Part shown: piece after piece, positions 4,318 to 63,515 of the stretch | Numbering within the stretch: position 1 is the first letter of the stretch | Layout: every line of letters starts with the position of its first letter | DNA from: Desulfomonilaceae bacterium | GTDB taxonomy: Bacteria > Desulfobacterota > Desulfomonilia > Desulfomonilales > Desulfomonilaceae | Reading direction: 5' to 3' | Assembly: GCA_031082285.1 (NCBI GenBank) | Contig: JAVHLK010000005.1 | Location: forward strand, 3,303-67,302 | DNA: 64,000 nucleotides | Translations under genes and position numbers: made by a program | Notes under the pieces: model-generated | What the model was told of the DNA's origin: nothing | Seen by the model: only the letters and a program-made list of their open reading frames with translations | The model's database searches: none

Positions 4318-6365
4318 GGACGAGCATCCTTGGAGTCCGCGGAGGAAGCTTTTTCCGCGGCAGGCGCGGAACTGAGCCCGTGGAGCAATGCCTCAAAGGC
4401 CATCCGTACGACTTCCGGTGCCGCGTCTTCCGGTAAGAGTCGCGGTGCCGCGGGGACGGGTCTTCCTGCAATGGCCGCGCTCACCCGGCCGCACGTACGT
4501 GTGAACTCCGTGAGATCGGACATGAGCCGGGCCCGGTACGCGTCACTGAGCGCGAACGCTGCTTCCAGGAACCCGGCATACTGCGGTTGCACGAGAAGCC
4601 CCTCCAGACCGGATGTCAACTCAAGGACATCTCCGCGGCCGGCCCCGAGGTACTGTGCGGCGATGCCGTGAAGGTCGATCTTTCGCTCGTGCATGCGCCG
4701 AAACACGTCTCTGCGGTCCACAAGACCGTTTTGCTTTCCAAGACTGTCCGTGACCGCTGCATAGACCGCTTCCGCGATCAGTTCGCCCATTTTCGTATGC
4801 CCTCCGGAATTATCGACGCGCGGGCCCCTGCCCTCCACGACGACGATGTTGTCGGTACCGGTTCCGGTAGCTTGCCTGGAAGGCGTGTACGAACTCCTCA
4901 CGTCGAGATCCTGCAGTGCCGCGGTTTTCGCTTCCGTGGCAGTGATGAGGGCCCTGGTCATGGCCCGTGGAGTCAAACGAGTGTTGGTCAAGATTATGAT
5001 GTTGATCGTGCCCGGCTCTTCGTAATCGCCGGAATCCGTACCGGTGCGGATCGCGTTGGTTTCCGCTCCGGCCGTTACAAGTGCGTAAGCGGTCATACTC
5101 TTGTAGGAACGTTTCTGAACCGAGAGGCTTTCCATTCGTGCACCGGTGTACATCAACGTACTCGTCGCGGAATCCCGTTCGAGTACGTTACAAAGCATGG
5201 TCTTCACATGGGAAAGCGCAACGCCATGGGGAAAATGCCACAGGGGCATCGGCAGGCTGTGATTGCCGATCGTCCGGATGTCCTCGACCGGACCTTCCAG
5301 CGTGTTGATGCACCGCATGGGTTCCGTGAAGTCAATGAGCAAGGTGCGATTGAAGAAGTCGCGAAACATGCAGTCCGTAATGACGGCTGATTTGACGTAC
5401 GGAAGATGAAGGTCGACGGCTTCCGAGGTATTCCGGTGATCTTCCGATACGGCCGTATCGTCGAGATGGAACACGTCTTCATAAATGACCGATGCGAGCC
5501 ACGCGATGAAATCCCCCATATGCACTGACGCTCGGCACGTGAAATCACAGGGAAAGCGAGCGAAGTGCTTGAGGCGAACCGCGTCCGCATCTTTCCAACC
5601 GGGTGTGTCGAAGTATATCTTGGACAGCCGCCATTCATCGCCGCAATAGTAGATCAGTTGAGGATTGAACTTCCGCCACTCCTCGACGGTCATTTCCACG
5701 GCAGGCCCGTTCCTTCCCGTCGACGGAGGAATACCCCCCGCGGCTCGAATGAACTCGTTCTGAAACGAGTCATCTCCGGGAGTCATGATGCCGGCAATCC
5801 CCATGAGCCTTATCACACGCTTGCGTTTATCACGGGGGATTTTGGCGACTTTGCGTTGCACACGGTCTATCTGGGCCCGTATCCGTCCGATCAATTCCGC
5901 GGCCTCCCGCTCCCTGCCCACGATTGCGCCCACAAGTTCCATCATCCGGTACCCGTCAGCCATGGAGCGGGTGTCCGTTTCCACCAGCAGGACCGTGGAA
6001 CCGGCGAAACGGTCCCGCAGATCTCGGTGGATTCGAGACAGAAAGATGAGGTCGGGCTCTTGCTTCTCCACTTCCTCAATTGACGGCTTGAAATAGCCGC
6101 CCACCACGGGTATGTCGTTGACGGCCGCGGGCCGGGTCGTGTGATAGGTCCTGCCGACCAGCAGGTGCTGTGCACCCAGGGCAAAGATCACTTCCGTGAC
6201 CGAGGGACTGACCGAAACAATGCGCCGCGGTTCCTTCGTCAGGGTCACCTCACGGCCCCCCATATCGGTGACAATAAGGGGATACTCAACGGCAAGCGCG
6301 GACGGAACAAGAGAAGCGGCCATGAAAACGGCCGCAAGGACACGCATACGTAGCGCAGTGCGCAT
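4314..6365 (-). CDS. Exported BtuF-like corrinoid-binding protein fused to CbiZ adenosylcobinamide amidohydrolase
   Basis: A 683-aa fusion. Residues 1-25 form a signal peptide ending ALA. Residues about 30-290 are a BtuF/FepB-type periplasmic binding domain (IVSVSPSVTEVIFALGA near its start, QEPDLIF further on). Residues about 320-600 match CbiZ, the amidohydrolase that cuts the aminopropanol side chain of cobinamide or pseudocobalamin to give cobyric acid; the motif ATEAKTAALQDLDVRSSYTP and the ATGTGTDNIVVVEG stretch are present. The last 80 residues look helical and low in conservation. ATG at 6365 has an AAGGAG site 7 bases upstream, 14 bp after the DUF2149 stop. Because the signal peptide precedes both domains, CbiZ should act in the periplasm, which is unusual. 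Role in corrinoid salvage is inferred from both domains and the upstream riboswitch. Confidence 0.9.
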   Translation of the reverse strand: MRTALRMRVLAAVFMAASLVPSALAVEYPLIVTDMGGREVTLTKEPRRIVSVSPSVTEVIFALGAQHLLVGRTYHTTRPAAVNDIPVVGGYFKPSIEEVEKQEPDLIFLSRIHRDLRDRFAGSTVLLVETDTRSMADGYRMMELVGAIVGREREAAELIGRIRAQIDRVQRKVAKIPRDKRKRVIRLMGIAGIMTPGDDSFQNEFIRAAGGIPPSTGRNGPAVEMTVEEWRKFNPQLIYYCGDEWRLSKIYFDTPGWKDADAVRLKHFARFPCDFTCRASVHMGDFIAWLASVIYEDVFHLDDTAVSEDHRNTSEAVDLHLPYVKSAVITDCMFRDFFNRTLLIDFTEPMRCINTLEGPVEDIRTIGNHSLPMPLWHFPHGVALSHVKTMLCNVLERDSATSTLMYTGARMESLSVQKRSYKSMTAYALVTAGAETNAIRTGTDSGDYEEPGTINIIILTNTRLTPRAMTRALITATEAKTAALQDLDVRSSYTPSRQATGTGTDNIVVVEGRGPRVDNSGGHTKMGELIAEAVYAAVTDSLGKQNGLVDRRDVFRRMHERKIDLHGIAAQYLGAGRGDVLELTSGLEGLLVQPQYAGFLEAAFALSDAYRARLMSDLTEFTRTCGRVSAAIAGRPVPAAPRLLPEDAAPEVVRMAFEALLHGLSSAPAAEKASSADSKDARP

Positions 6366-49016: not shown

Positions 49017-49772
49017 CTATTCTTTAGGCTTCTTCCGTTTATCACGGATGTAGATCACCGTGGACTGACCGTCATTTTGAATCCTCTTGTCGAACTCAAA
49101 GAGATTGGTGGCCGCAGCCAGCGCCCCCAGCTTACCATATCCGTAGTTGCGAGGATCAAACTCCGGAGCCTGCTTGATCACATTGCTGCCCACGTTACTC
49201 AAATGGGCCCAACCGCTCTCATCGGAAGCCGCATCCAGAGCACTTCGGAGAAGACTGACCAGTTTCGTGTCTCCTCTCAGTTCCTTTCCGGTTTTCGGTT
49301 TGGAGGCCGGTTCCGCGTCCACCTGGAACCGAAGGACTTCAGTGAAGATAAACTTGTCGCACGCAGACACGAATGGCTTTGGAGTCTTTTTCTCGCCGAA
49401 TCCATACACGAGCAGCCCCCCTTCCCTGATTCGGGACGCCAAGCGAGTGAAATCGCTGTCGCTGGAGACAAGACAGAATCCGTCGAAACGGCCGGTGTAG
49501 AGAAGATCCATGGCATCGATTATCATTGCGCTATCCGTCGCATTCTTACCCACGGTATAGCGGAACTGCTGAATCGGCTGAATCGAATGCTCCAACAGGA
49601 CCGACTTCCATCCGCTCAGGCTGGGTGTGGTCCAGTCACCATAGATGCGTTTCACGCTTGCCACACCGTACTTGGCGACTTCCGCGAGCAGCGCCTCCGT
49701 GATCGAGGGCTGGGCATTGTCTGCGTCAATAAGGACGGCAAGCCTGTCCTGAGACTGTTTCTCATTATTCAT
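49017..49772 (-). CDS. NYN-domain RNase-like protein with C-terminal OST-HTH/LOTUS domain
   Basis: A 251-aa protein. Residues about 8-150 form a PIN-like NYN nuclease domain with the acidic residues VLIDADNAQ, DSAMIIDAMDLLY and CLVSSDSDF. Residues about 170-245 match the OST-HTH/LOTUS domain (LVSLLRSALDAASDESGWAHLSNVG split at its core; NYGYGKLGALAAAT; FEF). This pairing is known from bacterial proteins thought to act on RNA. It lies 145 bp after the radical SAM gene on the same strand and could be read from it or separately. Confidence 0.88.
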   Translation of the reverse strand: MNNEKQSQDRLAVLIDADNAQPSITEALLAEVAKYGVASVKRIYGDWTTPSLSGWKSVLLEHSIQPIQQFRYTVGKNATDSAMIIDAMDLLYTGRFDGFCLVSSDSDFTRLASRIREGGLLVYGFGEKKTPKPFVSACDKFIFTEVLRFQVDAEPASKPKTGKELRGDTKLVSLLRSALDAASDESGWAHLSNVGSNVIKQAPEFDPRNYGYGKLGALAAATNLFEFDKRIQNDGQSTVIYIRDKRKKPKE

Positions 49773-49917: not shown

Positions 49918-52113
49918 TCATACCGTCACGATCCCCTGAGAAGCCAATGCGAGGAGAAACGATACGGCGCGATTCAATTCGTCGCCTTCGAACTTCGAGA
50001 GGATCGACTTCAGGTTTTTCCGAGCGTCAAGGTGCTTGAGCACCTGCCGTTCGGTCACGCCTACGGGAATGATCGTGTTCACGGGACTCAGCAGATAGTC
50101 GAGATGCCCAACATGATGGAGAGCATGAGACGGACCGTACGCGTGCCGATTCGGTGTCATTCGATCCAGCGGATATGGCGACCGAAAAAGCTCTACCGGG
50201 ATCAGAGGTCTCGCAATCAACGATTTGAGGTTCCTTGTTCTCGCTTGCCCGTCCATTGTTCTTAATCCGTCGAGCAGCCTTTCATAGGGGCCGGTCTCCT
50301 CTGTCTTGAGCTGCTTAAGTATGCCCGGACCCTGTCGGAAGTACAGAAAGCCGTGGTTGGTGGACAGGGACCCCACATACGGGTATTCGTTGATGACGTA
50401 ACGGTCCTCCAGCCTTTCCAAGCGTGCATAGAGCCTATTTACCGCGCGTGCGGATATCCTTGTTTCCGAAGTCCATATCGGCAGCGGAGCCATCAGGTGG
50501 TTGCCTTCATAGCTGATTGCGGACACGCCGTACTTCTCGGGGTCTTCGTGCATCCGTGAGCCGGGTACCACCATCAGGAGCCCGACTACATAATAGGAGA
50601 TTCGGTCCGGATTGTCTTCGAGAAATTCCACCGTACTCTCGGCTTCGCTTTCAGTCTCCCCCGGGAAGCCGAAGATCCCCATGGCCTGAGTCGCGACCCC
50701 GTTGTCATAGAGATCCTTCATGACCCGCGTGACGATCTCAATGTCCTTGCCCTTGTTCATCGCGTCCAGGGTCCGCCGGCACGCACTCTCCAGTCCGATG
50801 GCGACGCTGTTCAGACCCGCTCGTGCCATGAGCCTGCACAGATCCGCGTCGAACTCTTTTTCCGCGCGCAAGTCCGTGTTCCACACAAAGTGCTTCCCGG
50901 ATGCGATTGCCGCTCTGCTGAACCGCTCGAGGTACCGAGGATCGATCACATCGTTGCTGAAATTGAAGTGATTCGTCCGGTAACGTTCCGCAAGTGCCGA
51001 CATTTCATCCAATGCCTTGTCCACAGGTACAGTCTGGTAACGCCGGATGCGATTGTCGCCGTACCGATTCTGACAAAAGACGCACTTTCCCCAATAGCAT
51101 CCACGGCTTATGCTGTAGGGAAGCACGGTTTCAGGAATGAGGTACGCGTCGAGGTCCAGGTCGCTGAAATCGGGAGGCGGCAACTCCTTGACGTCTGGAT
51201 AGCGGAGTTGGTCGAAGCGATGGACCGTACCGGTTGTGCGGTCGATGTGAATGAGGTTGGGTAAGCCCGTCGGCGCCTGCTCCAGCGCCAGGCGGTCCAT
51301 CAGCCCGGTGAAGGCCTCCTCCCCTTCGCCGCAGACGACCGAATCCGTGCAGGTGAACAGCCATTGCAGCTGAGGCTCCTGCATGAGCAGCACCCACTGC
51401 GACAGATAGGCTCCACCCATAGTGATGTGAACGGTGGGAAACCGTTCCTTGAGTATCTTGGCCAGAACCGGCGCCTGAACCGACTGGGCGGCAAACTCCA
51501 TGGAAATTCCTATGGCCGTGGGCCGGTACTCCGCAATCTGCGGGCAAAGGACTTCCTCATAGTAGCTCACGTACGGATTGAGCGAGGGATCGCAAAAGGC
51601 AAAGACGCCTTCGGGCGAGTTGACTGATTGCGCGGAGGTGAAGTCGGCCGGCCCGATTTCCGCGGGGAAATGCGCGGCCGACAACAACCGGAAGAACGCG
51701 TCCAACACGCGGCAAGACCTTTTGTACTGGCGGTAGTCTCGAAATCTGCGGGCACTTCCGAAAGTCTTGACGGCATCGCCGAGTGCGCGCAGGTTGCGTT
51801 CCATCCACACTGCGCTTGCGAGGAGTGCGTACTGCCGCTGCTCGTCCTGCTCCAGCCGGCCCTTGGCTTCGAGCCGCTCTCTCATGCGTGAGGCACGCTG
51901 CACAAGGGCTTTCAATTGCTCCTCTCGGGCGAGAAAGTGAAAGGCTTCGATGCCGAGGTCGCGGACCCACGTCCTGTGACCGCGCGGCTCGGCAAACGCC
52001 TTTAAATACGGCAGCGCGGGATAAGGCCCGGTAAGGTCCCCCGGAGGGGGCTGCAATAGGATTGCTCTGGACTCCGTCTTTTTCATATTCAATGCATTGA
52101 ACCGTTCGGTCAC
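49918..52113 (-). CDS. B12-binding-domain radical SAM protein coupled to the pup operon
   Basis: A 731-aa protein. Residues about 15-290 form a cobalamin-binding-like domain with a long helical insert (about 75-170). Residues about 350-560 form a radical SAM core with the cluster motif CYWGKCVFC (C-x3-C-x2-C variant of spacing CxxxxCxxC as written) preceded by YSISRG, and with IGLESACRRTLDAMNKGKD. The C-terminal 130 residues include a HALHHVGHLDYLLSP segment and end in a winged-helix-like part. No DxHxxG cobalamin motif is obvious. Its ATG overlaps the stop of the 228-aa gene (ATGA). Substrate unknown; some relatives modify peptides or RiPPs. The Cys spacing should be read from the residues given. 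Confidence 0.85.
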   Translation of the reverse strand: MTERFNALNMKKTESRAILLQPPPGDLTGPYPALPYLKAFAEPRGHRTWVRDLGIEAFHFLAREEQLKALVQRASRMRERLEAKGRLEQDEQRQYALLASAVWMERNLRALGDAVKTFGSARRFRDYRQYKRSCRVLDAFFRLLSAAHFPAEIGPADFTSAQSVNSPEGVFAFCDPSLNPYVSYYEEVLCPQIAEYRPTAIGISMEFAAQSVQAPVLAKILKERFPTVHITMGGAYLSQWVLLMQEPQLQWLFTCTDSVVCGEGEEAFTGLMDRLALEQAPTGLPNLIHIDRTTGTVHRFDQLRYPDVKELPPPDFSDLDLDAYLIPETVLPYSISRGCYWGKCVFCQNRYGDNRIRRYQTVPVDKALDEMSALAERYRTNHFNFSNDVIDPRYLERFSRAAIASGKHFVWNTDLRAEKEFDADLCRLMARAGLNSVAIGLESACRRTLDAMNKGKDIEIVTRVMKDLYDNGVATQAMGIFGFPGETESEAESTVEFLEDNPDRISYYVVGLLMVVPGSRMHEDPEKYGVSAISYEGNHLMAPLPIWTSETRISARAVNRLYARLERLEDRYVINEYPYVGSLSTNHGFLYFRQGPGILKQLKTEETGPYERLLDGLRTMDGQARTRNLKSLIARPLIPVELFRSPYPLDRMTPNRHAYGPSHALHHVGHLDYLLSPVNTIIPVGVTERQVLKHLDARKNLKSILSKFEGDELNRAVSFLLALASQGIVTV

Positions 52114-52796
52114 AGTAGGCGGGACAGTTCGGAATTCTTCAGTGTTTCCAAGTCCAACACTCGGTACGAAGGGTTGTTGAGGCGCTTGTATTCCAGTGAA
52201 TGCGACAATATGGGCAAGGAGTTGTACGTCTGTACGAAATCAGCCACCTCCATGAGAAAAGAATCGAGCGTGTCGGAAGCGAAGGCGAATACCATGCCGT
52301 CCACAACGAGCGAACCCGCCCTGTTAAGATCTCTGAAGCGTGCCAGGGCGGCCAGAAACCGCTCTCCGCTGCCCCTGACCCTCTCCGCCGACTCCAGGCA
52401 AGCCTTCAATAAACACGCGCACGCGGTATCTTCATCATCCTTGAACCGCAGTCGATACGGACGGAGATTCACCCGGAAGACGGTCCCGTCCCGCGATACG
52501 TCTTCCAGGATCGGTCTGTCTGCTTCGGGTCGGGCCTTGAGCAGATCTCTCGCAAGGTTGTTGCCGAACGTCATCGGGTCGTCGACAATGTGTCCGATGC
52601 CGAACTCGCCCTGGTGCAAAAACTTGTAGATGTCCGCGGGCGTGTGGGCGATTGGCACTACCGATCCGTAACCGGTCTTCAGGCCGGTGCGCAACGTGTG
52701 ATGGGGAACCTCGTGCAAGCGGAATTGCCTGATTACGGTCGCCTGAACGCCCTTGCCCTCACGAGAGTCCCCATGACGTGGTCCGTTGATTTCCAT
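52110..52796 (-). CDS. Unrecognised 228-aa protein between pafA and the radical SAM gene
   Basis: A soluble protein, without signal or membrane segments. It starts 29 bp after the pafA stop and overlaps the radical SAM start by 4 bp, so it is translated with it. Notable segments are FRLHEVPHHTLRTGLKTGYG, a Cys pair in DEDTACACLLKAC, and VVDGMVFAFASDTLDSFLME. The C-terminal 60 residues look helical (EVADFVQTYNSLPILSHSLE). No proteasome, Ntn-hydrolase or chaperone motif is seen. I do not recognise a family. Context suggests it works with the radical SAM enzyme, perhaps as a substrate-binding partner. Confidence 0.75.
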   Translation of the reverse strand: MEINGPRHGDSREGKGVQATVIRQFRLHEVPHHTLRTGLKTGYGSVVPIAHTPADIYKFLHQGEFGIGHIVDDPMTFGNNLARDLLKARPEADRPILEDVSRDGTVFRVNLRPYRLRFKDDEDTACACLLKACLESAERVRGSGERFLAALARFRDLNRAGSLVVDGMVFAFASDTLDSFLMEVADFVQTYNSLPILSHSLEYKRLNNPSYRVLDLETLKNSELSRLL

Positions 52797-52825
52797 GGCC
52801 TATTACCGTTCCTTGAAATTCATGG

Positions 52826-54316
52826 CTATCCCCAGGCCGCGAGAAACCCATCGACTTCCGCGGTTAGGGACTCGTCCCGCGCGAGGAACGGGTCCAACAA
52901 CCTGACGTCGAGTCTGTTCGACATTCGATGGAGTCTTCTGAACGGATGCTCGAATCCGTTCTTGTCGGCGTTCGCGGCTATCCTCACCATTTCCCAATTC
53001 TCGACCACGACTTCCACGTTCTTGCCGGCGGAACTCTGTATGATCATTCCACGAATGCGGGCTCGCGTGTCGCCGGGCGGCTCATGAAGAGCCCTTTCGA
53101 TTGCCTCGTCATCAAGGACCTTATCCGCGATTTGCATCTGCAGGCATCGATTGAACAGACCCGCTTCCGGGTCAAGATCATGGTAAAGCACATCGATCAA
53201 CCTGCTCCGGTAATCGTCCCAACCGATCCCCTTGGCCTTGTGAACCCGGTCTATCAGCCAGAGTTTGAGTACCCAGTCCAGCTTGGATTTCAGGTTGCCC
53301 GGGTCGGCTTCCAGCAGTCCGGTTTGAGGGGAGATCCGCAATTCTTCCAGCCCCTCGAGAGTGATGGCCCACTGCTGGAGGATCTCCTTCTCGTCCGGAG
53401 TCGCACCGTTGTTCGCGCAGAATCGCCGTGCCCTGTCCCAATAGAGGCTCTGTACGTCGAGAGCGGTGGACTTGCGCGTATGACCCTTAAGGCCTATCGG
53501 ACAGTTCAATCCCCGCGAAATACCCTTGAGAGCCCGAACCGGTGACGACAGTTCAGGCGCGTCGCCGAGCGCCCCCTCTTCCAGTAATCTCAGAATCAGC
53601 GATGTGGTGCCGATCTTCAGCCATATGGCGTATTGCGACATGTTGGAATCGCCCACGATGATGTGAAGGCGCCTGTTCTGCCCTTCCCGAGGAATCTCTC
53701 GTTTTCTGAGGTTTATGATTCCTCTCACCTCGGAAGTGCGGTCGCTGAAGACCCGATCCACGAAATCCGCGCGTTGAGTAATTTGATAGACCGGGGAATT
53801 TCCGTCATGTGGGGCCGTCACTTTTCCCGAACCCGCGATTACCTGACGAGTCACCAGGAACGGAATGAGAGCTCGAATATCTTGCATGGCCGATGGGGTT
53901 ACAAGGTAATTCTCGTGTCCTCCATACGTAGTCCCGAAGGAATCCGTGTTATTCTTGAACACCCGAAGCGTTCCCGCGTGCCCGCTGTCGGCCAGGAGAG
54001 CCCCGGCACCCGTCGTGAGATCCAGTACAATCCTCTCGCCCGCTTTTTCGTGCGCGACAAGGTCCTTGAGAGTCGAGCACTCAGGGGTGGCATATTCGGG
54101 GTGACCACCCCGATCGATATAGAAGCGCCCTCCATTGCCGAGGAACTCCCCTGCGTAGGTGTATCCCTTTGACGCGAGGGAGGATACAAGCAGTGGAGTC
54201 AATTCCTTCATCCGGTCCAGCAGCAACCCGTGGCTGAAGGGTCCGCAGGGCCGCGTGCCTTCCGGGTAGTGCATGAGGGCATATTCACACTCCGTACCGA
54301 AAATGCGGGTTTTCAC
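52826..54316 (-). CDS. pafA: Pup ligase PafA
   Basis: The protein is 496 aa from GTG 54316, placed to match the family start (MKTRIFGTECEY). TTG 54337 would add seven residues. It is a carboxylate-amine ligase of the glutamine synthetase-like fold that joins the Pup C-terminal glutamate to substrate lysines. ATP/Mg residues sit in GTECEY; the Asp base is in GGRFYIDRGGHPEYATPEC. The stretch FKNNTDSFGTTYGGHENYLV is PafA-type (Dop has NNVD here), and there is no Dop loop. SD-like AGGGGAG overlaps the Pup stop. It lies 7 bp after pup. Confidence 0.93.
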   Translation of the reverse strand: MKTRIFGTECEYALMHYPEGTRPCGPFSHGLLLDRMKELTPLLVSSLASKGYTYAGEFLGNGGRFYIDRGGHPEYATPECSTLKDLVAHEKAGERIVLDLTTGAGALLADSGHAGTLRVFKNNTDSFGTTYGGHENYLVTPSAMQDIRALIPFLVTRQVIAGSGKVTAPHDGNSPVYQITQRADFVDRVFSDRTSEVRGIINLRKREIPREGQNRRLHIIVGDSNMSQYAIWLKIGTTSLILRLLEEGALGDAPELSSPVRALKGISRGLNCPIGLKGHTRKSTALDVQSLYWDRARRFCANNGATPDEKEILQQWAITLEGLEELRISPQTGLLEADPGNLKSKLDWVLKLWLIDRVHKAKGIGWDDYRSRLIDVLYHDLDPEAGLFNRCLQMQIADKVLDDEAIERALHEPPGDTRARIRGMIIQSSAGKNVEVVVENWEMVRIAANADKNGFEHPFRRLHRMSNRLDVRLLDPFLARDESLTAEVDGFLAAWG

Positions 54317-54323
54317 AACTCCC

Positions 54324-54524
54324 CTATTCCCCTTCAACCTGCCGGAATTCGTCGAGGAATTCTTCCCCGGCCTTTTCCAACACTCCCTCTATGAAATCGT
54401 CGAGGTCCTCGAGCTTTCGCTTCATGTCGGGAGACATCTGGGAAGAGGCCGGTACCTCAAACGATTCGTCCTTCTTGCTTTCTCTCTTCTTCTTGGTTTT
54501 TGGAGCGAAACGACTCTCAGCCAT
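54324..54524 (-). CDS. pup: Prokaryotic ubiquitin-like protein Pup
   Basis: The protein is 66 aa from ATG 54524, 7 bases after GGAGAAGGAG. The N-terminal half is Lys/Glu-rich and disordered (APKTKKKRESKKDES). The C-terminal half is the helix that binds the ARC coiled coil (KRKLEDLDDFIEGVLEKAGE). It ends VEGE: the last residue is already Glu, so Dop deamidation is not needed before ligation, but the usual Gly-Gly before it is Glu-Gly. It lies between dop and pafA, as in actinobacteria, but here the gene order includes arc first. Confidence 0.92.
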   Translation of the reverse strand: MAESRFAPKTKKKRESKKDESFEVPASSQMSPDMKRKLEDLDDFIEGVLEKAGEEFLDEFRQVEGE

Positions 54525-54558
54525 CACGTATCTCCTTCTCCCAGAGACGCGCCCGACG

Positions 54559-56127
54559 TCATTCACGCGCACCCGAACGGAGAATGCGGATCAGATCTCT
54601 GGAAGTCTCGGCTTTTTCCAGGATATCTTGGCACAACTCCTTGGTTCCCTTCAATGGGTTGAGAAGGGGGACCATGCGATGTATGTCGCCATGATCGAAT
54701 CCCACGACTTCCCAATTCACGAGACAAACCTCTTTGGCGAACTTTTCCACACACTTCCCTCGAAAATGGGCCCGGGTGTCGGCAGGGGGCTCGCCGAAGA
54801 ATCGAACGATATCGGACTCGGAGACGAGTCTCTCCGTCAGTCCTTGTTCCTGCAGGCGGCCGAAGATCCCCTGCAGGGGCTGAATATTGTGATACTGCAA
54901 ATCGAGAACTCGGAGCCCCTGGGTGTCCCACGGCCGATCCTTGTTCTCACGAAACCGCGTAATGAACCACAGTTTCAACACCCAGTCCAGCCTTCTCGCC
55001 AGTTCCAGCGGATCTTCCATCAACCTGAAGTCGTCCGAAAGCCTGAGCCGGTCCAGTCCGTCCAGGGCGTAGGCCCACTGCTCCAGTATGTACTCGGCCT
55101 CCGGAACGCCCGGGCCCGACCCCTTCTCCAGATAGTCATGCGCCATATGGAGATACGATCTCTGAATCTCCATGGCGGTAAGTCTTCGCCCGTCCGCGAG
55201 ATCCACCGGAGTCGAGAAATCTGCGGAGATCCGTTTCAGAGCACTCAACGGTTCCGCGATCTCCAGTCGGTCGGTGAGAACATCGTCCTCCATCATCTGC
55301 AGCACGATCTGAGTGGTCCCAATCTTGAGAAATGCGGACCACTCGCACATGTTGGAATCTCCCAGAATCAGATGGAGCCGCTTGAAGCGAGCATCGTCGG
55401 CATGATGCTCGGCTCTGGTGTTGATGATGGGCCGGGCGTACATGGTCTCGACCCCGAAAACCTGTTCGAGGAAATCCGCTCTCTGAGAAAGCTGATACCT
55501 CGTTGCGCGACTCTCATCGACTTCACCGCCGATCTTTCCCGCTCCCGTAAAAACCTGGCGGGTAACAAGGAAAGGAATGAGGCCTCGCACGGCTTTCTCG
55601 GGGTTGCGCACCAGATATTTCTCGTGTGCCGCGGCATCCATGAGATAGTTTTCGTGACAACCGTAGCTATGTCCCTGGTAGTCAACGTTATTCTTGAAAA
55701 TTGAGACTTCGGATGTGGGAAGCTCCTTCCTCATCAAATCCAGTGCCTCACGGAGAACACGCTCGCCGGCCTTGTCGCAGGCCGTGACGTCTCGGGCACT
55801 CAGGCATTCCGGGGTCGAGTACTCGGGATGACCATGGTCGGTATACAATCTTGCGCCGTTGGGCAACACCGTATTGATGCGCAGGTTATCCTCCGCGGAT
55901 ATGATCTCCCGATTGGTACTCTTGCTGAACAATCCTCCCCGTATGTCCTGAAACGGCGTTTCGTGTCCGTAGTCCCAGAGTACTCCAATGCCCGGATCGC
56001 GCAGTCCCTTCGCTCGGGCGTACGAATTGATAAGGAACGACGATGCCTGGAAAGGCGTTAACCGGTCGGTGCCCCTCACCGTCAGCGCATACTCTTGCTC
56101 GATCCCGACAACTTTGGGGATGCTCAT
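54559..56127 (-). CDS. dop: Depupylase/Pup deamidase Dop
   Basis: The protein is 522 aa from ATG 56127 (GGAGG 4 bases upstream; the frame continues to 56142). It is a PafA paralogue that removes Pup from proteins. Dop-type marks are GIEQEYAL at the start, the Dop-loop region VLWDYGHETPFQDIRG at about residues 50-65, LPNGARLYTDHGHPEYSTPEC with the nucleophile Asp, and FKNNVDYQGHSYGCHENYL. As Pup here ends in Glu, its main role would be depupylation. It lies 28 bp after arc and 34 bp before pup. Confidence 0.93.
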   Translation of the reverse strand: MSIPKVVGIEQEYALTVRGTDRLTPFQASSFLINSYARAKGLRDPGIGVLWDYGHETPFQDIRGGLFSKSTNREIISAEDNLRINTVLPNGARLYTDHGHPEYSTPECLSARDVTACDKAGERVLREALDLMRKELPTSEVSIFKNNVDYQGHSYGCHENYLMDAAAHEKYLVRNPEKAVRGLIPFLVTRQVFTGAGKIGGEVDESRATRYQLSQRADFLEQVFGVETMYARPIINTRAEHHADDARFKRLHLILGDSNMCEWSAFLKIGTTQIVLQMMEDDVLTDRLEIAEPLSALKRISADFSTPVDLADGRRLTAMEIQRSYLHMAHDYLEKGSGPGVPEAEYILEQWAYALDGLDRLRLSDDFRLMEDPLELARRLDWVLKLWFITRFRENKDRPWDTQGLRVLDLQYHNIQPLQGIFGRLQEQGLTERLVSESDIVRFFGEPPADTRAHFRGKCVEKFAKEVCLVNWEVVGFDHGDIHRMVPLLNPLKGTKELCQDILEKAETSRDLIRILRSGARE

Positions 56128-56155
56128 GCTTCCTCCACGCACACGTCATCTTCGC

Positions 56156-57970
56156 CTATGTGAAACAATCCGCCGGGTCCAACACCTCTTGACGTGTGCA
56201 TTCCGGCGGCTGCGGCATGCAGCCCTTGCGAAATACGGAGCGGACCCTTACGACTCGCTCTCCTCCCTTACCGATTATCCGATACCACTCCGACGGATTC
56301 GTGTTGCTCGGGAGTTCTTCGTTTTCCTCATATTCCTTTCGAAGAGCGCTGAAGAGGTGCTGGAGGGTGATGCCTCTCTTGCCGGTGCCTATCAGATCCT
56401 TGACCGCGGCCAGCTTGGCTCGATTGACGATGTGCTCGATGATGGCGCCCCCTGCGAAATCTTTGAGGTAGAGTACGGTTCTGGTTCCGTCCGCATACGT
56501 GATTTCGAGCAGCTCGTTCTCCGGCTTCAGGCTGTACATCTCTTCCGAGATCTGATCGATCATCCATGCCGCCGCGGCGGCCGCATCCGCAAACTCATTG
56601 GTCAGCAAAGGATCAAAAGGGAGGTCCGGTTTGAGATACTTGGAGAAGATCTCCTTCGCGGCCGCCTTGTCGGGTCGAGGTATGCGGATCTTCCTGTCCA
56701 GACGGCCCGGTCTGAGAATTGCCGGGTCGATGAGATCCTCCCGGTTTGTCGCTCCGATCACGATCACGTTCTCCAGGGATTCGAGGCCGTCGAGTTCCGC
56801 AAGGAACTGCGGCACGATCGTTGATTCCATGTCCGATGATATGCCGGACCCCCTAACTCGGAACATGGAATCCATTTCGTCGAAAAATATGATTACCGGG
56901 GTATTGCCGCTTGCCTGATTGCGTGCGCGAGCAAACAGGTCCCGAATGGCCTGTTCCGTCTCCCCCACGTATTTGTTAAGAAGTTCGGGCCCCTTCACGT
57001 TAAGAAAGTAACTCTGCTTCCTCTCACCGGTCTCCTCTTCGATCCTCTTGGCCAGGTTATTCGCTACCGCTTTTGCCAGTAATGTCTTTCCGCATCCGGG
57101 AGGTCCGTACAGGAGGATGCCCTTGGGCGGAACCAGCTGGTACTCTCGGTAGTACTCCGGGTACAAGTGCGGCAATTCAATGGCTTCCTGCATCAACTCA
57201 ATCGCTTCATCGAGTCCGCCGATATCCGAATACCTGACGTCCGGCACCTTCTCCAGCACCAAACGATCCACCTCGTGCTTGGGAAGGATGCCGTATGCGA
57301 ACAAGGACTCCGGATCGTACTCGATATTGTCCCCGGCCAGGATCTTCACCGACGCGAGCGGTTCGGCTCTGGTGAGGATGATCGTCTCATCGCCGACGGT
57401 CTTCACGAGGAGTTTTTCGTCACTGAGAACTTGCTGTACATGGGCCAGGCTCCCGCATACCAGTTCAAATCCCCTCGCTTCAATGACCTGAAGATCGTTG
57501 TCCAAGAGCAGGTACTCACCCTTCCTGAATCCTTCCGCGGATCGCCTTCGTTTCGTGTGTATCTCCCGTATGGCATGAAACGTGCCCTTGGCACGCTCCT
57601 CACGATCGGATTCCTCTTCCTTGGGAATGACTTTGGCCTCGTACAGCCTCCCGTGATGCTTTATGACGACCGTGTTGTCTTCCCTCCCCTGCTGGACAAA
57701 AACTCCATAGGGATAGGCCCTGTCCGGATTGCGATCGCCGTTCGGCATGATATTCCGCATTTCCAACCTGGACTGGTGCAAGGCCTCGGCCAACAGGAGC
57801 CTCTTTTTCTCGGACTCCCGATACCTGGCTTCCATTTCGGCCTCATTTGCTTCGCTCTTCGGCGGGGTATGGGCATCCGCTTCCCTGACGATCCGGTCGA
57901 CAACCTGTCGTCGCTTCGACAGTCGGTCTCGCTTATGATCGCTTCTGCCGCTCTTCTCATCGTGTGCCAT
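56156..57970 (-). CDS. arc: Proteasome-associated AAA ATPase ARC/Mpa
   Basis: The protein is 604 aa from ATG 57970, with GGAGG 9 bases upstream. N-terminal coiled coil (about residues 30-75, EAEMEARYRESEKKRLLLAE), then tandem OB domains (about 80-230), then the AAA module: Walker A LLYGPPGCGKTLLAKAVANN, pore loop GPELLNKYVGE, Walker B VIIFFDEMDSMF, and RPGRLDRKIRI. It unfolds pupylated proteins. The end is ECTRQEVLDPADCFT, with no Gly-Gln-Tyr-Leu tail, which in actinobacteria docks and opens the 20S core. No prcA/prcB genes are in the window. The longer frame to 58072 lacks a ribosome site. Confidence 0.94.
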   Translation of the reverse strand: MAHDEKSGRSDHKRDRLSKRRQVVDRIVREADAHTPPKSEANEAEMEARYRESEKKRLLLAEALHQSRLEMRNIMPNGDRNPDRAYPYGVFVQQGREDNTVVIKHHGRLYEAKVIPKEEESDREERAKGTFHAIREIHTKRRRSAEGFRKGEYLLLDNDLQVIEARGFELVCGSLAHVQQVLSDEKLLVKTVGDETIILTRAEPLASVKILAGDNIEYDPESLFAYGILPKHEVDRLVLEKVPDVRYSDIGGLDEAIELMQEAIELPHLYPEYYREYQLVPPKGILLYGPPGCGKTLLAKAVANNLAKRIEEETGERKQSYFLNVKGPELLNKYVGETEQAIRDLFARARNQASGNTPVIIFFDEMDSMFRVRGSGISSDMESTIVPQFLAELDGLESLENVIVIGATNREDLIDPAILRPGRLDRKIRIPRPDKAAAKEIFSKYLKPDLPFDPLLTNEFADAAAAAAWMIDQISEEMYSLKPENELLEITYADGTRTVLYLKDFAGGAIIEHIVNRAKLAAVKDLIGTGKRGITLQHLFSALRKEYEENEELPSNTNPSEWYRIIGKGGERVVRVRSVFRKGCMPQPPECTRQEVLDPADCFT

Positions 57971-58128
57971 GGTATCGTTGCCTCCAGGATGCTGCGGTTC
58001 CTCCATCAGAACAACCTGATGTCGCCGACTGCGCGCACATGGGGACGAGTTCCGATTGCATGCCGCGTCCACCCGTTGAGATCGCTCCCTATGTCAACCG
58101 GTCCAACCGCATTGTGGGTCTCAATTAC

Positions 58129-58429: not shown

Positions 58430-59590
58430 TCAGCGAGATCCGACCACGGTCACGGTGGCTGTTTCGTTATGGAGCCTGCAGTCCGTACCGCTGACGGAGG
58501 GGCAGTACTCACCGTACGTATAGAATCCGATGATCGGGACACTCCGGCCCACCACATTGGCTATCCTCTCCGTTTCTTCTCTCGTGCGTGGGCCCAACAG
58601 TATCTTGCGTGCCATGCACGAATAGAAAAAGGTAATCGACGGAGACACCGCTCCAAGGGAGTCCATTGCTCTTCGAGCGGCGTCGGTGGACGCATCGAGC
58701 AATGAGGCCGCACTTCCGCCGGTTGTGAGGCTAATCGTGCTTCCCTGAGGTATTTCCCCCGCAAAACTCACCGATCCCTGGGATTCATTCAGTGTCATGG
58801 GCGCTCGCAAGACCGGATTTTCCCCGAGACTACCCGCCTCATTCACAAGTCCAAACGGAAACTGAATACCTACGGCCGGGAGTTTGTCGGCAAGAGGACC
58901 CAAATAGCGACGGTATACGGCCAGAGCCGATTCGCCGTCCAGTTCGTACACAACGTTGCCTGCCGAGCGAGTCACTTTCTTGGGCACTCCGGCCGGGAAC
59001 CAGCCGCTCCGAACGCCGGTCCCCACGTGAATGTCACCGGAAAGCGAGATGGCCGACGCGGCATCCGTCAAGATCCGGCTGCCGACAAACTGCCATGTTT
59101 GTTTCATTGCCCTTGCATCGCCTGCCGCGCCCCCACTGATCGGTACCTGGGGACCAAAAACCGATTGCATTCCCCGTAGGATCGCGCATCCGTTGCCGGT
59201 CAGTCCGTCCGAGAACAACTGCACGTGACGGGCAGTCCGAGGCAGCTGTTGAGCGAGTCGTCTACCGGCGCTCTCACTGTCGGCCCCGATCGACGATGTT
59301 GATGCAACCTCGAAAGCGATCGTGTCCGAGGCCAATCCCGCGAGAACCGCGGATCCCGTGCTGAAACCGCTCGTCGAGATTTCGCCGTCCGTGGTGCACC
59401 CCGCCAACTTAGTCGTCCCCACGGCCTGGACTATCCCGGACAACATCTCTGCCATACCGTCCCCAGGCTCACAGAAGAGCCAGCATGCATTCGGCGGTGT
59501 CCCGAGTTCGTGTACCAGCTTTTCTCCCAGTGCCTTGCCGAGACTCCTGGAAAACGGCTTCTTCGCACTTACCGTTGCGCCCTTCACCAT
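58430..59590 (-). CDS. FIST-domain sensor-like protein
   Basis: The protein is 386 aa from ATG 59590 (GGAGGG 7 bases upstream). It carries a FIST_N domain (about residues 25-225: GCTTDGEIS, HVQLFSDGLTGNG, PISGGAAGDARAM) and a FIST_C domain (about 235-375: YRRYLGPLADKLPAVGIQFPFGL, SITFFYSCMARKILLG, GFYTYGEYCP). FIST domains are thought to sense small ligands such as amino acids, usually linked to signalling domains; here they stand alone. It is upstream of the pup operon on the same strand but 460 bp away, across a repeat, so a link is not shown. Confidence 0.88.
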   Translation of the reverse strand: MVKGATVSAKKPFSRSLGKALGEKLVHELGTPPNACWLFCEPGDGMAEMLSGIVQAVGTTKLAGCTTDGEISTSGFSTGSAVLAGLASDTIAFEVASTSSIGADSESAGRRLAQQLPRTARHVQLFSDGLTGNGCAILRGMQSVFGPQVPISGGAAGDARAMKQTWQFVGSRILTDAASAISLSGDIHVGTGVRSGWFPAGVPKKVTRSAGNVVYELDGESALAVYRRYLGPLADKLPAVGIQFPFGLVNEAGSLGENPVLRAPMTLNESQGSVSFAGEIPQGSTISLTTGGSAASLLDASTDAARRAMDSLGAVSPSITFFYSCMARKILLGPRTREETERIANVVGRSVPIIGFYTYGEYCPSVSGTDCRLHNETATVTVVGSR

Positions 59591-59796
59591 CTGTCTTCCC
59601 TCCTGTACGACGATGATCGTGCCGCAATGCGGCCGCCATAGACAATGTCCGATAGGGAGTGAAGAGCTGAGAATTTCAAGGAACTGTCGTCTCTCGTCAA
59701 TCCGTGACCTGGTGGTCGATTTCATAAATAAGGTCAAGCACTTGCAAATCAGAGCGCTGAGTGCTCTGCGGCCTAAGTAAGGTCACGTATTCTTAA

Positions 59797-59838
59797 CCTT
59801 TCGAGATTGCCGTGGGCTTCGCCCTCGCAATGACAAAC
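59797..59838. repeat. Short dispersed repeat, copy 2 (GATTGCCGTGGGCTTCGCCC core)
   Basis: Nearly identical to 11264-11306, with the same flanking CTTAACC and AATGACAAAC. It abuts the left inverted repeat of the element at 59849. Confidence 0.6.
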
Positions 59839-59848
59839 TTCCTTCTCG

Positions 59849-60241
59849 TTCCCAGGCTCTGCCCTGAGCATGTCCCATATCCTGGATCGCTGGACACCGT
59901 CCGCATGCCCTGAAAGGGCATACCTTGAATAGCCATGGGTTTTAACCCATGGTAACGGTGAACAATAATAGATGGTTATGGACCCTGAAGGGGTCCACCA
60001 ACTGGGCAACGGATGCGGTGAGTCATTGGTCGGCCCCTTCAGGGCCGTTCAGACAATTGGGTTGGTGCCCTCTCCACGGGTTGAAACCCGTGGCTACTCA
60101 TGGTGAGCCCCTTCGGGGCTCCGGGCAGGCATCCCGCGAGGAACGCGGGACCCCTACCCAAATCGGTTGACCTATTGTCGGCCCATTCGCACGGTGTCCA
60201 GCCAAAGAGATATGGGACATGCTCAGGGCTCTGCCTGGGAA
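59849..60241. repeat. Palindrome array bounded by inverted repeats (about 393 bp)
   Basis: Ends 59849-59880 and 60210-60241 are inverted copies over 32 bases except for a short hairpin loop that reads the same way at both ends (GGCTCTGCC). A second inverted block (CTGGACACCGT at 59890 and ACGGTGTCCAG at 60191) lies just inside. Between them are palindromes such as CCATGGGTTTTAACCCATGG, CACGGGTTGAAACCCGTG, GAGCCCCTTCGGGGCTC and TCCCGCGAGGAACGCGGGA. Frames inside are not credible genes. Same architecture as 10063-10475. With flanks it fills the 59591-60336 gap. Confidence 0.75.
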
Positions 60242-60336
60242 TGCCTATCTTCCCCGCGTCCCGCGGGGTGTTTGGACCGGAGTTTGCTTCAGCCAGAGAC
60301 TTTCATGGTCAGTTGTCATCCGAGGATCATGGCGGT

Positions 60337-60663
60337 CTATTTCTTCCTCCCTTTGCCGTGGTACATGGAGTGCGTGCGGCGGTCGAACTCCGCGCGATGC
60401 TCCAGCCATTCAAGGGCTTGTTGTCTTTGCCACCCACGTTGTTGGCAAATCAAGTCCACCACCGATCCGCCCACATCAGGGCAAGTCCTGCACATGAACG
60501 TATTCTTGACCGCGTTGAAGAAAAGCGTCGGAGCCTCGTTATCCTTGTGCCTTTCACTCCTGAAGCACGGGCCCATGTTGCCCCGCACTTTGATCCCGAG
60601 TTCGATTGCAACCTCTATGATGCGCTCGGTACTTTCAATTCGTTTCACGTCCTTGTCATCCAT
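60337..60663 (-). CDS. Stand-alone CHC2-type zinc-finger protein (DnaG-like)
   Basis: The protein is 108 aa from ATG 60663, 3 bases after AGAGGA. Residues about 10-85 resemble the N-terminal zinc domain of DnaG primase: KDVKRIESTERIIEVAIELG, then GPCFRSERHKDNEAPTLFFN and FMCRTCPDVGGSVVDLICQQ, giving Cys, His, Cys, Cys ligands. A basic tail follows. There is no TOPRIM or helicase-binding part, so it is not a primase by itself. It overlaps no neighbour and lies 88 bp downstream of the SirB1-type gene. It may bind DNA; role unknown. Confidence 0.78.
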   Translation of the reverse strand: MDDKDVKRIESTERIIEVAIELGIKVRGNMGPCFRSERHKDNEAPTLFFNAVKNTFMCRTCPDVGGSVVDLICQQRGWQRQQALEWLEHRAEFDRRTHSMYHGKGRKK

Positions 60664-60751
60664 GGTTCCTCTCAGCAGCCGAATCGCTGCGGGATTCCGG
60701 AGGCGATGTGTTCCTCTTCCCCGACAACTCGGCGTAGACCGGCAGGGGATC

Positions 60752-61585
60752 TCAATGAACCGATGTCTTGTGCTTCCGGAACATCGCAACCTTGGCGCGC
60801 AGCCTGTTTCTTTCTTCTTCGTCACGAGTCAGGGACGCGCACTTCTCCAGGTCCGTCGCCGCACTCCCGTAATCACCTACGGATTCATAGTACGCCGCCC
60901 GCTCCAAGAGTTCCTGAATCGCATCCGGTGCGAGGATGAGTATCCAGTTGATCAGTGCAAGGGCTCGCGTCTGATTCTTCATGGACAGATACACGCCCTT
61001 GAGATTTCGCATGAGCCGCACCACGATCTGCTTGGGCCGGACGGGATCGAGAAAGCTCCGGTTGAAACCCGCGGATGTCCCTGCATGGGATATGACGATC
61101 CGCCTGCACGCATCTTCGGTGAGAACTTGTCCTCTGTTGAACGGGTCAATGAATACGCGGGCGGAATCGGTCAACAAGCCGACTATGAAATGGCCGGGCA
61201 AACCGATTCCGTAGGTTTTGAGACCCGCTCTCCGGCCGACCTCCAAGTAGACGATCGAGAGCGTGATGGGAATCCCCAGCTTTCTGTCCAGGACCTCATT
61301 GAGAAAGCTGTTCCTCGGATCGTAGTAGTTTTCCGTATTTCCTCGAAAACCTTCTTCTTCGAACACTACCGTGTTGATTTCATTGACCACGTGTTCCGGC
61401 TCATCCGGCACCTGCATTCTCCGCCGAAGCCTCTCGGCCATTTCGTCGAGCCCGGCCAAATAGTGAGGTGCATCCAGTGACGGATACTGCAGTCGGGCAA
61501 TCAGCAACGCCGAGGCTGCAAGCTCGACTTCGTGATCCTCCATGGATGCGATCCGGGCGATCCGTTGGGTTATGTCTCGCTTCAT
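60752..61585 (-). CDS. SirB1-family transglutaminase-like protein with TPR region
   Basis: The protein is 277 aa from ATG 61585. Residues about 35-190 match SirB1/transglutaminase-like proteins: VVNEINTVVFEEEGFRGN, NSFLNEVLDRKLGIPITLSI, then YGIGLPGHFIVGL and FIDPFNRGQVLT. In true transglutaminases a Cys starts the triad; here the usual Cys position in PITLSIVYLEV is Ser, so peptidase-like activity is doubtful. Residues 200-270 form TPR-like helices. Common in proteobacteria beside prfA/hemK, which are not here. Function uncertain. Confidence 0.82.
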   Translation of the reverse strand: MKRDITQRIARIASMEDHEVELAASALLIARLQYPSLDAPHYLAGLDEMAERLRRRMQVPDEPEHVVNEINTVVFEEEGFRGNTENYYDPRNSFLNEVLDRKLGIPITLSIVYLEVGRRAGLKTYGIGLPGHFIVGLLTDSARVFIDPFNRGQVLTEDACRRIVISHAGTSAGFNRSFLDPVRPKQIVVRLMRNLKGVYLSMKNQTRALALINWILILAPDAIQELLERAAYYESVGDYGSAATDLEKCASLTRDEEERNRLRAKVAMFRKHKTSVH

Positions 61586-61607
61586 GCCCAAAGCTCTATC
61601 CTTGTCC

Positions 61608-62876
61608 TCATATGCCCAAAAGCCGGCACGCGTTTTGTCCGAGCACTTTACGCTTCTCCTTTTCAGTCACCAGATTGTTCGCCTTGAGCCCGTTGACGAG
61701 ATACTCCAGACTCACCCCTGCCGTAAGAGGCAATGGGTAGTCGGTTGCAAAGAGGATTCGGTCGAACGTGATGGTCTTTCTGATCTCCTTCGGGACCATC
61801 TCTCTGTCCAGTATCCAATCGACCGCAGCGAGGTCCGCGTACACGTTGCGGTATTTCTTTCCCAGCCCCAAGGTTTCGTGGAGCCAGATGCCGGGAATGA
61901 GACTGCTGTACGCCCCGGAGTGTGCCATGATAACGGGTACGTCGGGATACTTCTTCACGATGGGTTCCCACAGGAGGGGATTTGCATCCTGACTGAGTTC
62001 CAGGATCTCGAACGGGCCTGCGCCGCAACCTGTGTGAGAGAGGACAATGGAACCGGTGTCTCGGCAGTAATCGAACAGCACCTTCACATTCTCGCATTCC
62101 GAGGGATTGAAAAATTGTGAGAAGGGGAGCAGCTTTATTCCTTTCAGGCCAAGGCCGCGGATCTCCTCCAGCGTACGTTCAACATACTCGCGATCCTTGG
62201 AGAGATTCACGGAACCGAAGCCGATAAGCGTTTCCGGGTAGTCCTTGACCCAGTCGGCCACGTCATGATTGGTGACGTGAGTGGGAGAGTAGAGGCTTGC
62301 TTTGATCTGTTTGAGCATGTGTTCAAAGGGAACACGAGATGCCTGAGCGCTTCCAGAGTAGGCCTTTTCGAGCTTGGACCTGATCTCGGGTCGGTCCGGG
62401 TCCGAGGGGTCCGTGTCGGTGGCCAGGATCACGCCGTGAGTGACCCCCGCTTTTCGCATGTCGGTGAAGAATCTCATGTCGGGCATTTTGGGATGAATGT
62501 GAAAATCAACGATGGGAAAGAAATCCAGATTCGACCTGAGATCCTTCGGATCGACGGGATCGTTTTTCGACGCGTTCGTTTCGTTGTTCTTCACCGCGCC
62601 TTTTCCGCGTACGAGGGTGTAGTCCGTCGATTCTACCGAGTGATGGAGAGCCTGAAGTGCAATGACCACGCGATACTTGACCCGAAAATCTTCCAATTCG
62701 GTCAGGTACGGACGGAGTTTCTCGATCAAGCGTCGGACGGTGCTCTCATCCGCGATTCTGAACAGCTTTCTCACCGTTCTCCATCTCACGTCGGGAGGAT
62801 CGTTAATCAGCGCGTCCACGATGTCGTCTTCCTCCGGTAAGGGCGGGAATCCGACATAGCATTCTTTCTCTTTCAT
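61608..62876 (-). CDS. Amidohydrolase-family metal-dependent hydrolase with N-terminal helical extension
   Basis: A 422-aa protein. Residues 1-90 form a HEAT-like helical extension (DALINDPPDVRWRTVRKLFR). From about residue 118 an amidohydrolase-2 TIM barrel follows: FFPIVDFHIHPKMPDM with the first metal His pair, GFGSVNLS, KGIKLLPFSQFFNP, IVLSHTGCGAGPFE, VPVIMAHSGAY and RILFATDYPLPL with the catalytic Asp. The ligand set is that of decarboxylase/hydrolase members. Substrate cannot be read. It lies 23 bp upstream of the SirB1 gene on the same strand and 108 bp after the AmiS/UreI gene. Confidence 0.87.
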   Translation of the reverse strand: MKEKECYVGFPPLPEEDDIVDALINDPPDVRWRTVRKLFRIADESTVRRLIEKLRPYLTELEDFRVKYRVVIALQALHHSVESTDYTLVRGKGAVKNNETNASKNDPVDPKDLRSNLDFFPIVDFHIHPKMPDMRFFTDMRKAGVTHGVILATDTDPSDPDRPEIRSKLEKAYSGSAQASRVPFEHMLKQIKASLYSPTHVTNHDVADWVKDYPETLIGFGSVNLSKDREYVERTLEEIRGLGLKGIKLLPFSQFFNPSECENVKVLFDYCRDTGSIVLSHTGCGAGPFEILELSQDANPLLWEPIVKKYPDVPVIMAHSGAYSSLIPGIWLHETLGLGKKYRNVYADLAAVDWILDREMVPKEIRKTITFDRILFATDYPLPLTAGVSLEYLVNGLKANNLVTEKEKRKVLGQNACRLLGI

Positions 62877-62984
62877 GAGGCCTCACTCGGTTGATTCGGC
62901 GGCGAAAAGTCCTGGATCATACTCGGGGGTACGTATGCCGCCCACACGGACGATCCGGGTGTGAGCGGCGTCACCGATCAAAGT

Positions 62985-63515
62985 CTAGAACGGAAGTTTG
63001 CCCGTCACCATCAGCGAGAAAGCGGGCAGCCAGAGTCCGACAAGTGACCACACGATGAGAGACCAGGCCAAGCCCGCTGCCGGGAATTTGCCGTAGGCAT
63101 TGAGCCAGACCTCAAGGGTGAGCACGGCATAGCCCAGACACGCCAACGCGAAGAAGTTGCTCTTGGCCACCAGCTGCTTACCGTCCTCAAGCACCGGCCC
63201 TCCGGTGAAAAAAATCACCATGTAAATCAAGGAGACAATCATGACGGTAAAGCTGACGTTCCCAACGGATCGAAGGTCCTCCAAACCGGCCAACAATGCA
63301 TAAGCGACCGTGCAATAGAGCAGGCCGTGGACAAAAAGCAGACCCGCGGTGAATGGATCCTTGAAGACCGCGGCCTGGAGAATCGCGCCGATAACGACTA
63401 CTGCTCCAACAAAAGCGGTAGCTGCGCCGGTTCCTTTGGGCTCGCCTTTTCCCAGAAAGAGGATTGCGACGGGCATCCACATAATGCTAATGGCTACCAA
63501 CACTGCCAACGTCAT
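62985..63515 (-). CDS. AmiS/UreI-family membrane channel
   Basis: A 176-aa protein with six predicted membrane helices, the size and topology of AmiS/UreI urea and short-amide channels. Typical parts are FVGAVVVIGAILQAA, GLLFVHGLLYCTVAYALLAGL and FFALACLGYAVLTLEVWLNA. Such channels let urea or short-chain amides cross the inner membrane passively. AAGGAAGG precedes the ATG. The neighbouring amidohydrolase may use the imported compound, but no urease or amidase genes are here. Confidence 0.88.
   Translation of the reverse strand: MTLAVLVAISIMWMPVAILFLGKGEPKGTGAATAFVGAVVVIGAILQAAVFKDPFTAGLLFVHGLLYCTVAYALLAGLEDLRSVGNVSFTVMIVSLIYMVIFFTGGPVLEDGKQLVAKSNFFALACLGYAVLTLEVWLNAYGKFPAAGLAWSLIVWSLVGLWLPAFSLMVTGKLPF

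Follow-up and report, generated by a model that had tools for sequence, protein, structure and literature searches.

Here we describe an extended pupylation operon in a 64,000-nucleotide stretch of DNA (the window) from a Desulfomonilaceae bacterium (assembly GCA_031082285.1, contig JAVHLK010000005.1, positions 3,303 to 67,302). On the minus strand, genes for the proteasomal-type ATPase Mpa, the depupylase Dop, the small modifier Pup and the Pup ligase PafA are followed by a gene for a 228-amino-acid (aa) protein of no named family, which we call F228, and by a gene for a cobalamin-type radical S-adenosylmethionine (SAM) protein, rSAM, in the order mpa-dop-pup-pafA-F228-rSAM (Table 1). Within the phylum of the window, the link of F228 to the module is as tight as that of pup, and we regard F228 as very probably a functional partner of pupylation, whereas rSAM is an optional member of the module that comes only with F228. 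For the explanation as a whole, an extended proteasome-less pupylation operon in which F228 would be the acting partner and rSAM a modifying enzyme, we put the chances at about even.

F228 follows pafA in canonical pup loci

An initial reading of the window made from its letters alone (the sequence-only reading) had proposed that the Pup operon runs on from pafA into the 228-aa gene and then into the radical SAM gene, and that this coupling suggests shared function. The gene order and the 29-bp gap between the end of pafA (52826) and the ATG of F228 (52796) agree with that proposal. The interval it gave for the arrangement, 52110-54337, covers pafA and F228 but not rSAM, which lies at 49918-52113. 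The F228 and rSAM open reading frames (ORFs) do overlap by 4 bp (52110-52113), except that the overlap reads GTGA, with GTG as the rSAM start, and not ATGA as had been proposed; ATGA is the junction in a second genome, G602. An alternative rSAM start, ATG 52086, lies 23 bp downstream of the GTG, about where two aligned orthologues begin, and alignment with orthologues likewise suggests that pafA probably starts at GTG 54316 and not at TTG 54337. A scan of the coding strand, itself of little power, found no promoter- or terminator-like sites between the operon genes.

We searched 395 genomes of the window's phylum (the window's own genome being G000) for PF03136, the Dop/PafA family, and with a profile of F228, and later extended the search class-wide; the survey covers one phylum in depth together with a sample of Bacteroidota. 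PF03136 was present in five of the 395 genomes (G000, G047, G077, G295 and G305) and F228 also in five (G000, G047, G142, G295 and G305), with four in common (hypergeometric P = 2.5e-8, a figure that ignores phylogeny); canonical dop/pafA and F228 thus show the same sporadic distribution. The two mismatches are G077, which carries a different, divergent PF03136 cluster, and G142, where the contig ends just upstream of F228, at the place where pafA would lie, and where the 93% complete draft holds no PF03136 gene. The class-wide search added G602, in which F228 again directly follows pafA.

Taken together, F228 stands immediately after pafA in 5/5 canonical pup loci found, one of them decayed, the sixth F228 being that at the G142 contig end, and an orthologous rSAM follows F228 in five of the six F228 loci, G305 lacking it. 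Shared function is well supported by this conserved neighbourhood, with F228 after pafA in every canonical pup locus and orthologous rSAM only beside F228. Nor was it refuted by the condition that the sequence-only reading had set, since the F228-rSAM pair was not seen mostly in pup-free genomes: in the phylum sample F228 occurs only in genomes with pup or a pup remnant, except at the G142 contig end, and it is F228 alone that has distant relatives in six pup-free Bacteroidota.

The order mpa-dop-pup-pafA-F228 is kept in G602, in G047 (where an acyl-CoA synthetase-like gene is inserted after dop) and in G305, with the spacing between pafA and F228 ranging from a 22-bp gap in G602 and a 6-bp gap in G047 to an 8-bp overlap in G305. 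Gene order is conserved, beyond what chance would give, in independent genomes whose F228 proteins share 36-58% identity. Because PF03136 and F228 are both absent from G009 and G083, which belong to the genus of G047, vertical inheritance alone does not account for the co-occurrence.

The decayed locus is that of G295, which has lost mpa, dop and the N-terminus of pup and whose pafA carries a frameshifting internal deletion, with F228 and rSAM intact (L023:9897-10953). The loss looks recent, since what remains of pafA keeps 57.6% identity to the pafA of G047. We considered this locus as proof of a pup-independent F228-rSAM pair and rejected it: the undecayed remnant points to a recent deletion, after which an intact pair proves little.

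A pupylation system apparently lacking the 20S proteasome

The identification of the operon as a Pup operon holds. Mpa scores above the NCBIfam pup_AAA cut-off, and Dop and PafA are both well over the Pfam cut-off for PF03136, though both under their NCBIfam equivalog cut-offs. Pup falls below the Pfam gathering score, yet has the G-E end, and its C-terminal half is conserved in G602, G047, G305 and G295. A Pup-like protein with C-terminal G-[EQ], a PafA/Dop pair and an Mpa/ARC ATPase, as in canonical Pup-proteasome systems, are all present. The 20S subunits PrcB/PrcA were not found, the sole PF00227 protein being HslV or HslV-like in G000, G047, G142, G295, G305 and G077, draft metagenome-assembled genomes (MAGs) in which genes could be missed. 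Nor did any of the four Mpa C-termini read (DPADCFT, VTESLK, IPDQLK and VSDALE) carry GQYL/HbYX. Pupylation in these genomes apparently proceeds without a 20S proteasome; its absence is something we infer, because drafts can miss genes. Plesiocystis and Rhodopirellula have been noted as being without proteasome genes beside pafA (Iyer et al. 2008, PMC2588565), and for Corynebacterium glutamicum, which pupylates without prcBA, it has been proposed that the tag leads to unfolding rather than degradation (PMC8223512).

A cobalamin-type radical SAM protein that comes only with F228

The rSAM protein contains a radical SAM domain with a three-cysteine motif, spaced CX4CX2C where CX3CX2C is usual. 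It had been called a B12-type enzyme, an assignment that its sequence leaves below threshold (PF02310, 24.7 versus 32.1 bits) and that its predicted fold upholds: an AlphaFold2 model (pLDDT 76.6, pTM 0.80) matches OxsB (1.1e-14), TsrM (5.7e-14), MgmA and CysS, and also the non-methylating AprD4, with E values from 1e-14 to 1e-12, and on this model a cobalamin-binding domain is predicted to be present. The protein is below every named NCBIfam equivalog cut-off, its best relatives, all far below, being methyltransferases of ribosomally synthesized and post-translationally modified peptides (RiPPs) and phosphorus C/P-methyltransferases; the RiPP maturation radical SAM C-methyltransferase family TIGR03975 gave 118.3 against 281.85 bits. 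No adjacent precursor peptide was found: in the window there is no space for a small ORF between F228 and rSAM, and the neighbour, F228, is predicted to be a folded 228-aa protein with homologues in genomes that have no rSAM orthologue. Since homologues exist in the absence of rSAM, we rejected the view that F228 is a RiPP precursor or nothing but a substrate of rSAM. Orthologues of rSAM (54-60% identity) are limited to the F228 genomes G000, G047, G142, G295 and G602, and the next homologues are 30-33% identical.

A CobN-type chelatase and a protein with Peripla_BP_2 and CbiZ domains, that is, cobalamin uptake or salvage genes, lie at 412-6365 of the window and fit a cobalamin-handling organism. 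Directly downstream of rSAM on the same strand, at 49017-49772, is a gene for an NYN domain with an OST-HTH/LOTUS domain.

On one alternative, which we consider doubtful though it retains some weight, the modification itself would be the point of the operon: rSAM would modify Pup, its targets or F228, F228 would be a substrate or substrate-presenting partner, and the modification would tune pupylation. This would explain why orthologous rSAM occurs only with F228 and why stop and start overlap in the window and in G602; the fold near MgmA, a protein glutamine methylase, and the RiPP and phosphorus methyltransferases as closest, if distant, NCBIfam relatives point the same way. However, F228 occurs without an rSAM orthologue in G305 and the Bacteroidota, so that no modification is needed there and F228 is not dependent on rSAM; the Pup C-terminus is alike with or without rSAM (RQIEGE in G305); and several structural relatives, OxsB and CysS among them, act on small molecules. 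A search for a modification site among residues found only in rSAM-bearing copies of F228 gave six weak candidates, all resting on one comparison, that with G305, and was not usable. Modification of Pup, its targets or F228 by rSAM, as suggested in the sequence-only reading, is neither shown nor excluded, and we put it at an even chance that rSAM acts on a protein or peptide at all.

F228 is a family without a name or a fold match

As the sequence-only reading had anticipated, F228 matches no known family: searches of Pfam, NCBIfam, PHROG, PADLOC and PDB sequences were empty, and it was found in no phage families (PHROGs), plasmids, viral contigs or PADLOC. Its AlphaFold2 model, a confident one (pLDDT 86.7, pTM 0.83), had no significant Foldseek match in PDB and BFVD, and no PDB fold match under E = 0.27. 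F228 as a proteasome subunit was rejected in view of the lack of a PF00227 match.

Homologues occur in 6/198 genomes of the Bacteroidota phylum, to which the Melioribacter MAG belongs, and PF03136 was found in 0/6 of these. They share with the pup-linked proteins the core D-x-Y-K ... G-x-x-H ... R-x-N-L ... HS ... P-x-YRV, and differ in that most have signal peptides by inspection, none has HExxHH and their genomes have no pup. A secreted-looking protein of G574 (L047:697-2118) joins an F228 homologue to an alpha/beta-hydrolase (esterase-like) domain.

Across 12 F228 sequences 14 residues are invariant, many of them polar, including D55, Y57, K58, H69, R108, H199, S200, Y211 and R212. The six pup-linked proteins group in a single clade (support 0.999) with 47 invariant positions, histidine at seven of them; residues further common to the six include HExxHH (28-33), H51, H61 and E64. 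HExxHH is thus found in 6/6 pup-linked proteins and HExxH in 0/6 unlinked homologues, and it lies in a predicted helix (residues 12-36), as the HExxH of a zincin does. The pattern suggests that F228 acquired a metal site on entering the pup operon. The PDB fold search returned no zincin fold for the model, and since the model has no significant PDB or BFVD match F228 is not to be filed as a zincin. That F228 binds metal is quite possible, somewhat short of an even chance, and that it is a hydrolase is appreciably less likely.

F228 could instead be non-catalytic, an adaptor or regulator binding PafA/Dop or Mpa; its fixed place beside pafA and its size, typical of adaptors, would suit such a role. 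The residues invariant across the 12 homologues are mostly polar or charged, however, which resembles an active site or ligand site more closely than a binding surface, and we think an adaptor unlikely without discounting it heavily.

Neighbouring genes and related clusters

Table 1. Features of the pup locus and its surroundings in the window (positions count from the first letter of the window).
Feature	Position	Strand	Remarks
Mpa/ARC proteasomal-type AAA ATPase (mpa)	56156..58072	minus	TIGR03689 601.8 bits, cut-off 504.75; C-terminus DPADCFT, without GQYL
Dop, depupylase family (dop)	54559..56142	minus	PF03136 485.3 bits; TIGR03688 453.7 bits, slightly under cut-off 492.3
Pup (pup)	54324..54572 (likely start ATG 54524)	minus	PF05639 21.6 bits, under gathering score 27; C-terminus RQVEGE
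PafA, Pup ligase (pafA)	52826..54337	minus	PF03136 373.5 bits; TIGR03686 335.1 bits, under cut-off 551.3
F228, 228 aa, unnamed family, pup-linked clade	52110..52796	minus	ORF, ATG at 52796
HExxHH motif of F228 (residues 28-33, HEVPHH)	52698..52715	minus	predicted helix 12-36
rSAM, cobalamin-type radical SAM protein	49918..52113	minus	PF04055 75.1 bits; start GTG 52113 or ATG 52086
rSAM iron-sulfur cysteine motif CYWGKCVFC (CX4CX2C)	51073..51099	minus	invariant in orthologues and more distant homologues
FIST-domain protein, syntenic neighbour	58430..59737	minus	PF08495 and PF10442; near the locus also in G602, G047, G142
Small cysteine-containing protein (119 aa in G602), syntenic neighbour	60340..60651	minus	CHC2-type zinc-finger look, from reading the sequence; no Pfam match
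SirB1-like Transglut_core2 protein	60755..61609	minus	PF13369 174.9 bits; syntenic in G602
Amidohydrolase	61611..62876	minus	PF04909; syntenic in G602, G047, G295

Beside the operon, window positions 58430-63515 encode a FIST protein, a CHC2-like zinc finger, a SirB1-like transglutaminase-fold protein, an amidohydrolase and an AmiS/UreI-like transporter, and parts of this set are again found next to the locus in G602, G047 and G295; the small cysteine-containing protein keeps its place near the locus in the same three genomes. A nitrogen or amide link of these neighbours is possible. A further protein without a family, F100 (103-107 aa; L006:10547-10858, L007:8751-9062, L022:15933-16253), is absent from the window; in G047 and G142 its 103-aa gene separates F228 from rSAM, and G305 has a homologue immediately upstream of mpa. 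Our preferred reading places F228 in the core of the module, with rSAM, F100 and FIST as accessories.

The neighbours bring in a second alternative role for F228 and rSAM, that they act elsewhere and merely share a genomic island (AmiS/UreI, amidohydrolase, CHC2-type and FIST genes) that also carries pup. In G602, G047 and G295 the locus has syntenic non-pup genes on its flanks, as such hitch-hiking would produce; the sporadic, mobile-island-like distribution and the intact F228 and rSAM of G295 next to broken pup genes fit it too. G305, however, has neither the island genes nor rSAM, yet keeps mpa-dop-pup-pafA-F228 with F228 overlapping pafA, and, G142 with its contig end aside, the phylum sample holds no genome with F228 but without pup or its remnant. 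Hitch-hiking is accordingly rather improbable.

The divergent cluster of G077 (L024:1087-10577, G077:C211) encodes ThiF/E1-like, weak E2-like (UQ_con) and weak JAB-domain proteins together with a proteasomal-type AAA ATPase with an OB domain and two Pup_ligase-family proteins, that is, ubiquitin-like and pup-like parts in one operon.

Discussion

We favour an extended proteasome-less pupylation operon with F228 as an acting partner. Pup would serve as a reversible tag and mark proteins to be pulled by Mpa, not to be degraded by the 20S proteasome, as proposed for C. glutamicum. F228 would be cytoplasmic and, with its HExxHH helix and the invariant D/Y/K/H/R/H/S/R set, probably metal-binding, and would have a direct part in the pupylation pathway, acting on Pup conjugates or on the unfolded products of these; rSAM, resembling cobalamin-dependent radical SAM methyltransferases, would modify a protein or peptide of the pathway. 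A bolder form, in which pupylation, in bacteria whose 20S proteasome was lost or never existed, gained in F228 a dedicated metalloenzyme of new fold acting on the pupylated proteins pulled by Mpa, plus protein modification by rSAM, is a long shot.

Several observations weigh against the reading we favour. The F228 model resembles no zincin or other solved fold, and HExxH is a short motif, with about 0.04 occurrences expected per protein by composition. The six unlinked homologues occur without pup, and the ancestral function of F228 was therefore probably not related to it. G305 has no rSAM, and G295 retains F228 and rSAM intact although mpa and dop are lost and pup and pafA incomplete. Finally, only six loci were found, in one phylum, and the absence of the 20S proteasome rests on draft MAGs.

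The least probable of the alternatives, that F228 replaces the missing protease as a metallopeptidase degrading or trimming pupylated proteins threaded by Mpa, draws on the missing 20S, on Mpa without GQYL and on a zincin-type motif in a predicted helix that is invariant only in the pup-linked clade, but meets with a model that has no metallopeptidase fold match and no predicted beta-sheet ahead of the HExxH helix, a length of 228 aa without indications of a ring or docking motif, and a motif that may be structural.

F228, whose family is in every canonical pup operon seen in the phylum and has no name or fold match, is a direct candidate for the missing effector of pupylation without a proteasome. 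No link between pupylation and a radical SAM enzyme was found in the literature searched, which lacks most subscription journals; finding a B12 radical SAM enzyme among the genes of protein tagging would, if true, link two kinds of protein modification unconnected there. The pupylation pathway of these few Gram-negative bacteria probably has unstudied parts.

Comparison with known systems

The locus shares with the Actinobacterial Pup-proteasome system a Pup with C-terminal GE, PafA, Dop and an Mpa/ARC ATPase in one operon, and differs from it in gene order, in an Mpa without GQYL, in the lack of 20S subunits found in the genome and in the added F228 and rSAM. Proteasome-less C. glutamicum, too, has Pup, PafA, Dop and ARC and no prcBA (PMC8223512), whereas F228, rSAM, F100 and the FIST neighbours are absent from any description found. 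With cobalamin-dependent radical SAM enzymes (OxsB, TsrM, MgmA and CysS by fold, the TIGR03975 and PhpK families by sequence), rSAM shares the radical SAM domain, the cobalamin-type N-terminal fold and the cysteine cluster. It stands apart from them in being under every NCBIfam cut-off, in its CX4CX2C spacing, in the N-terminal motif LLQPPPGD(L/V)TGPYPAL of the pup-linked subfamily and, for the window protein, in an extra C-terminal stretch of about 115 residues.

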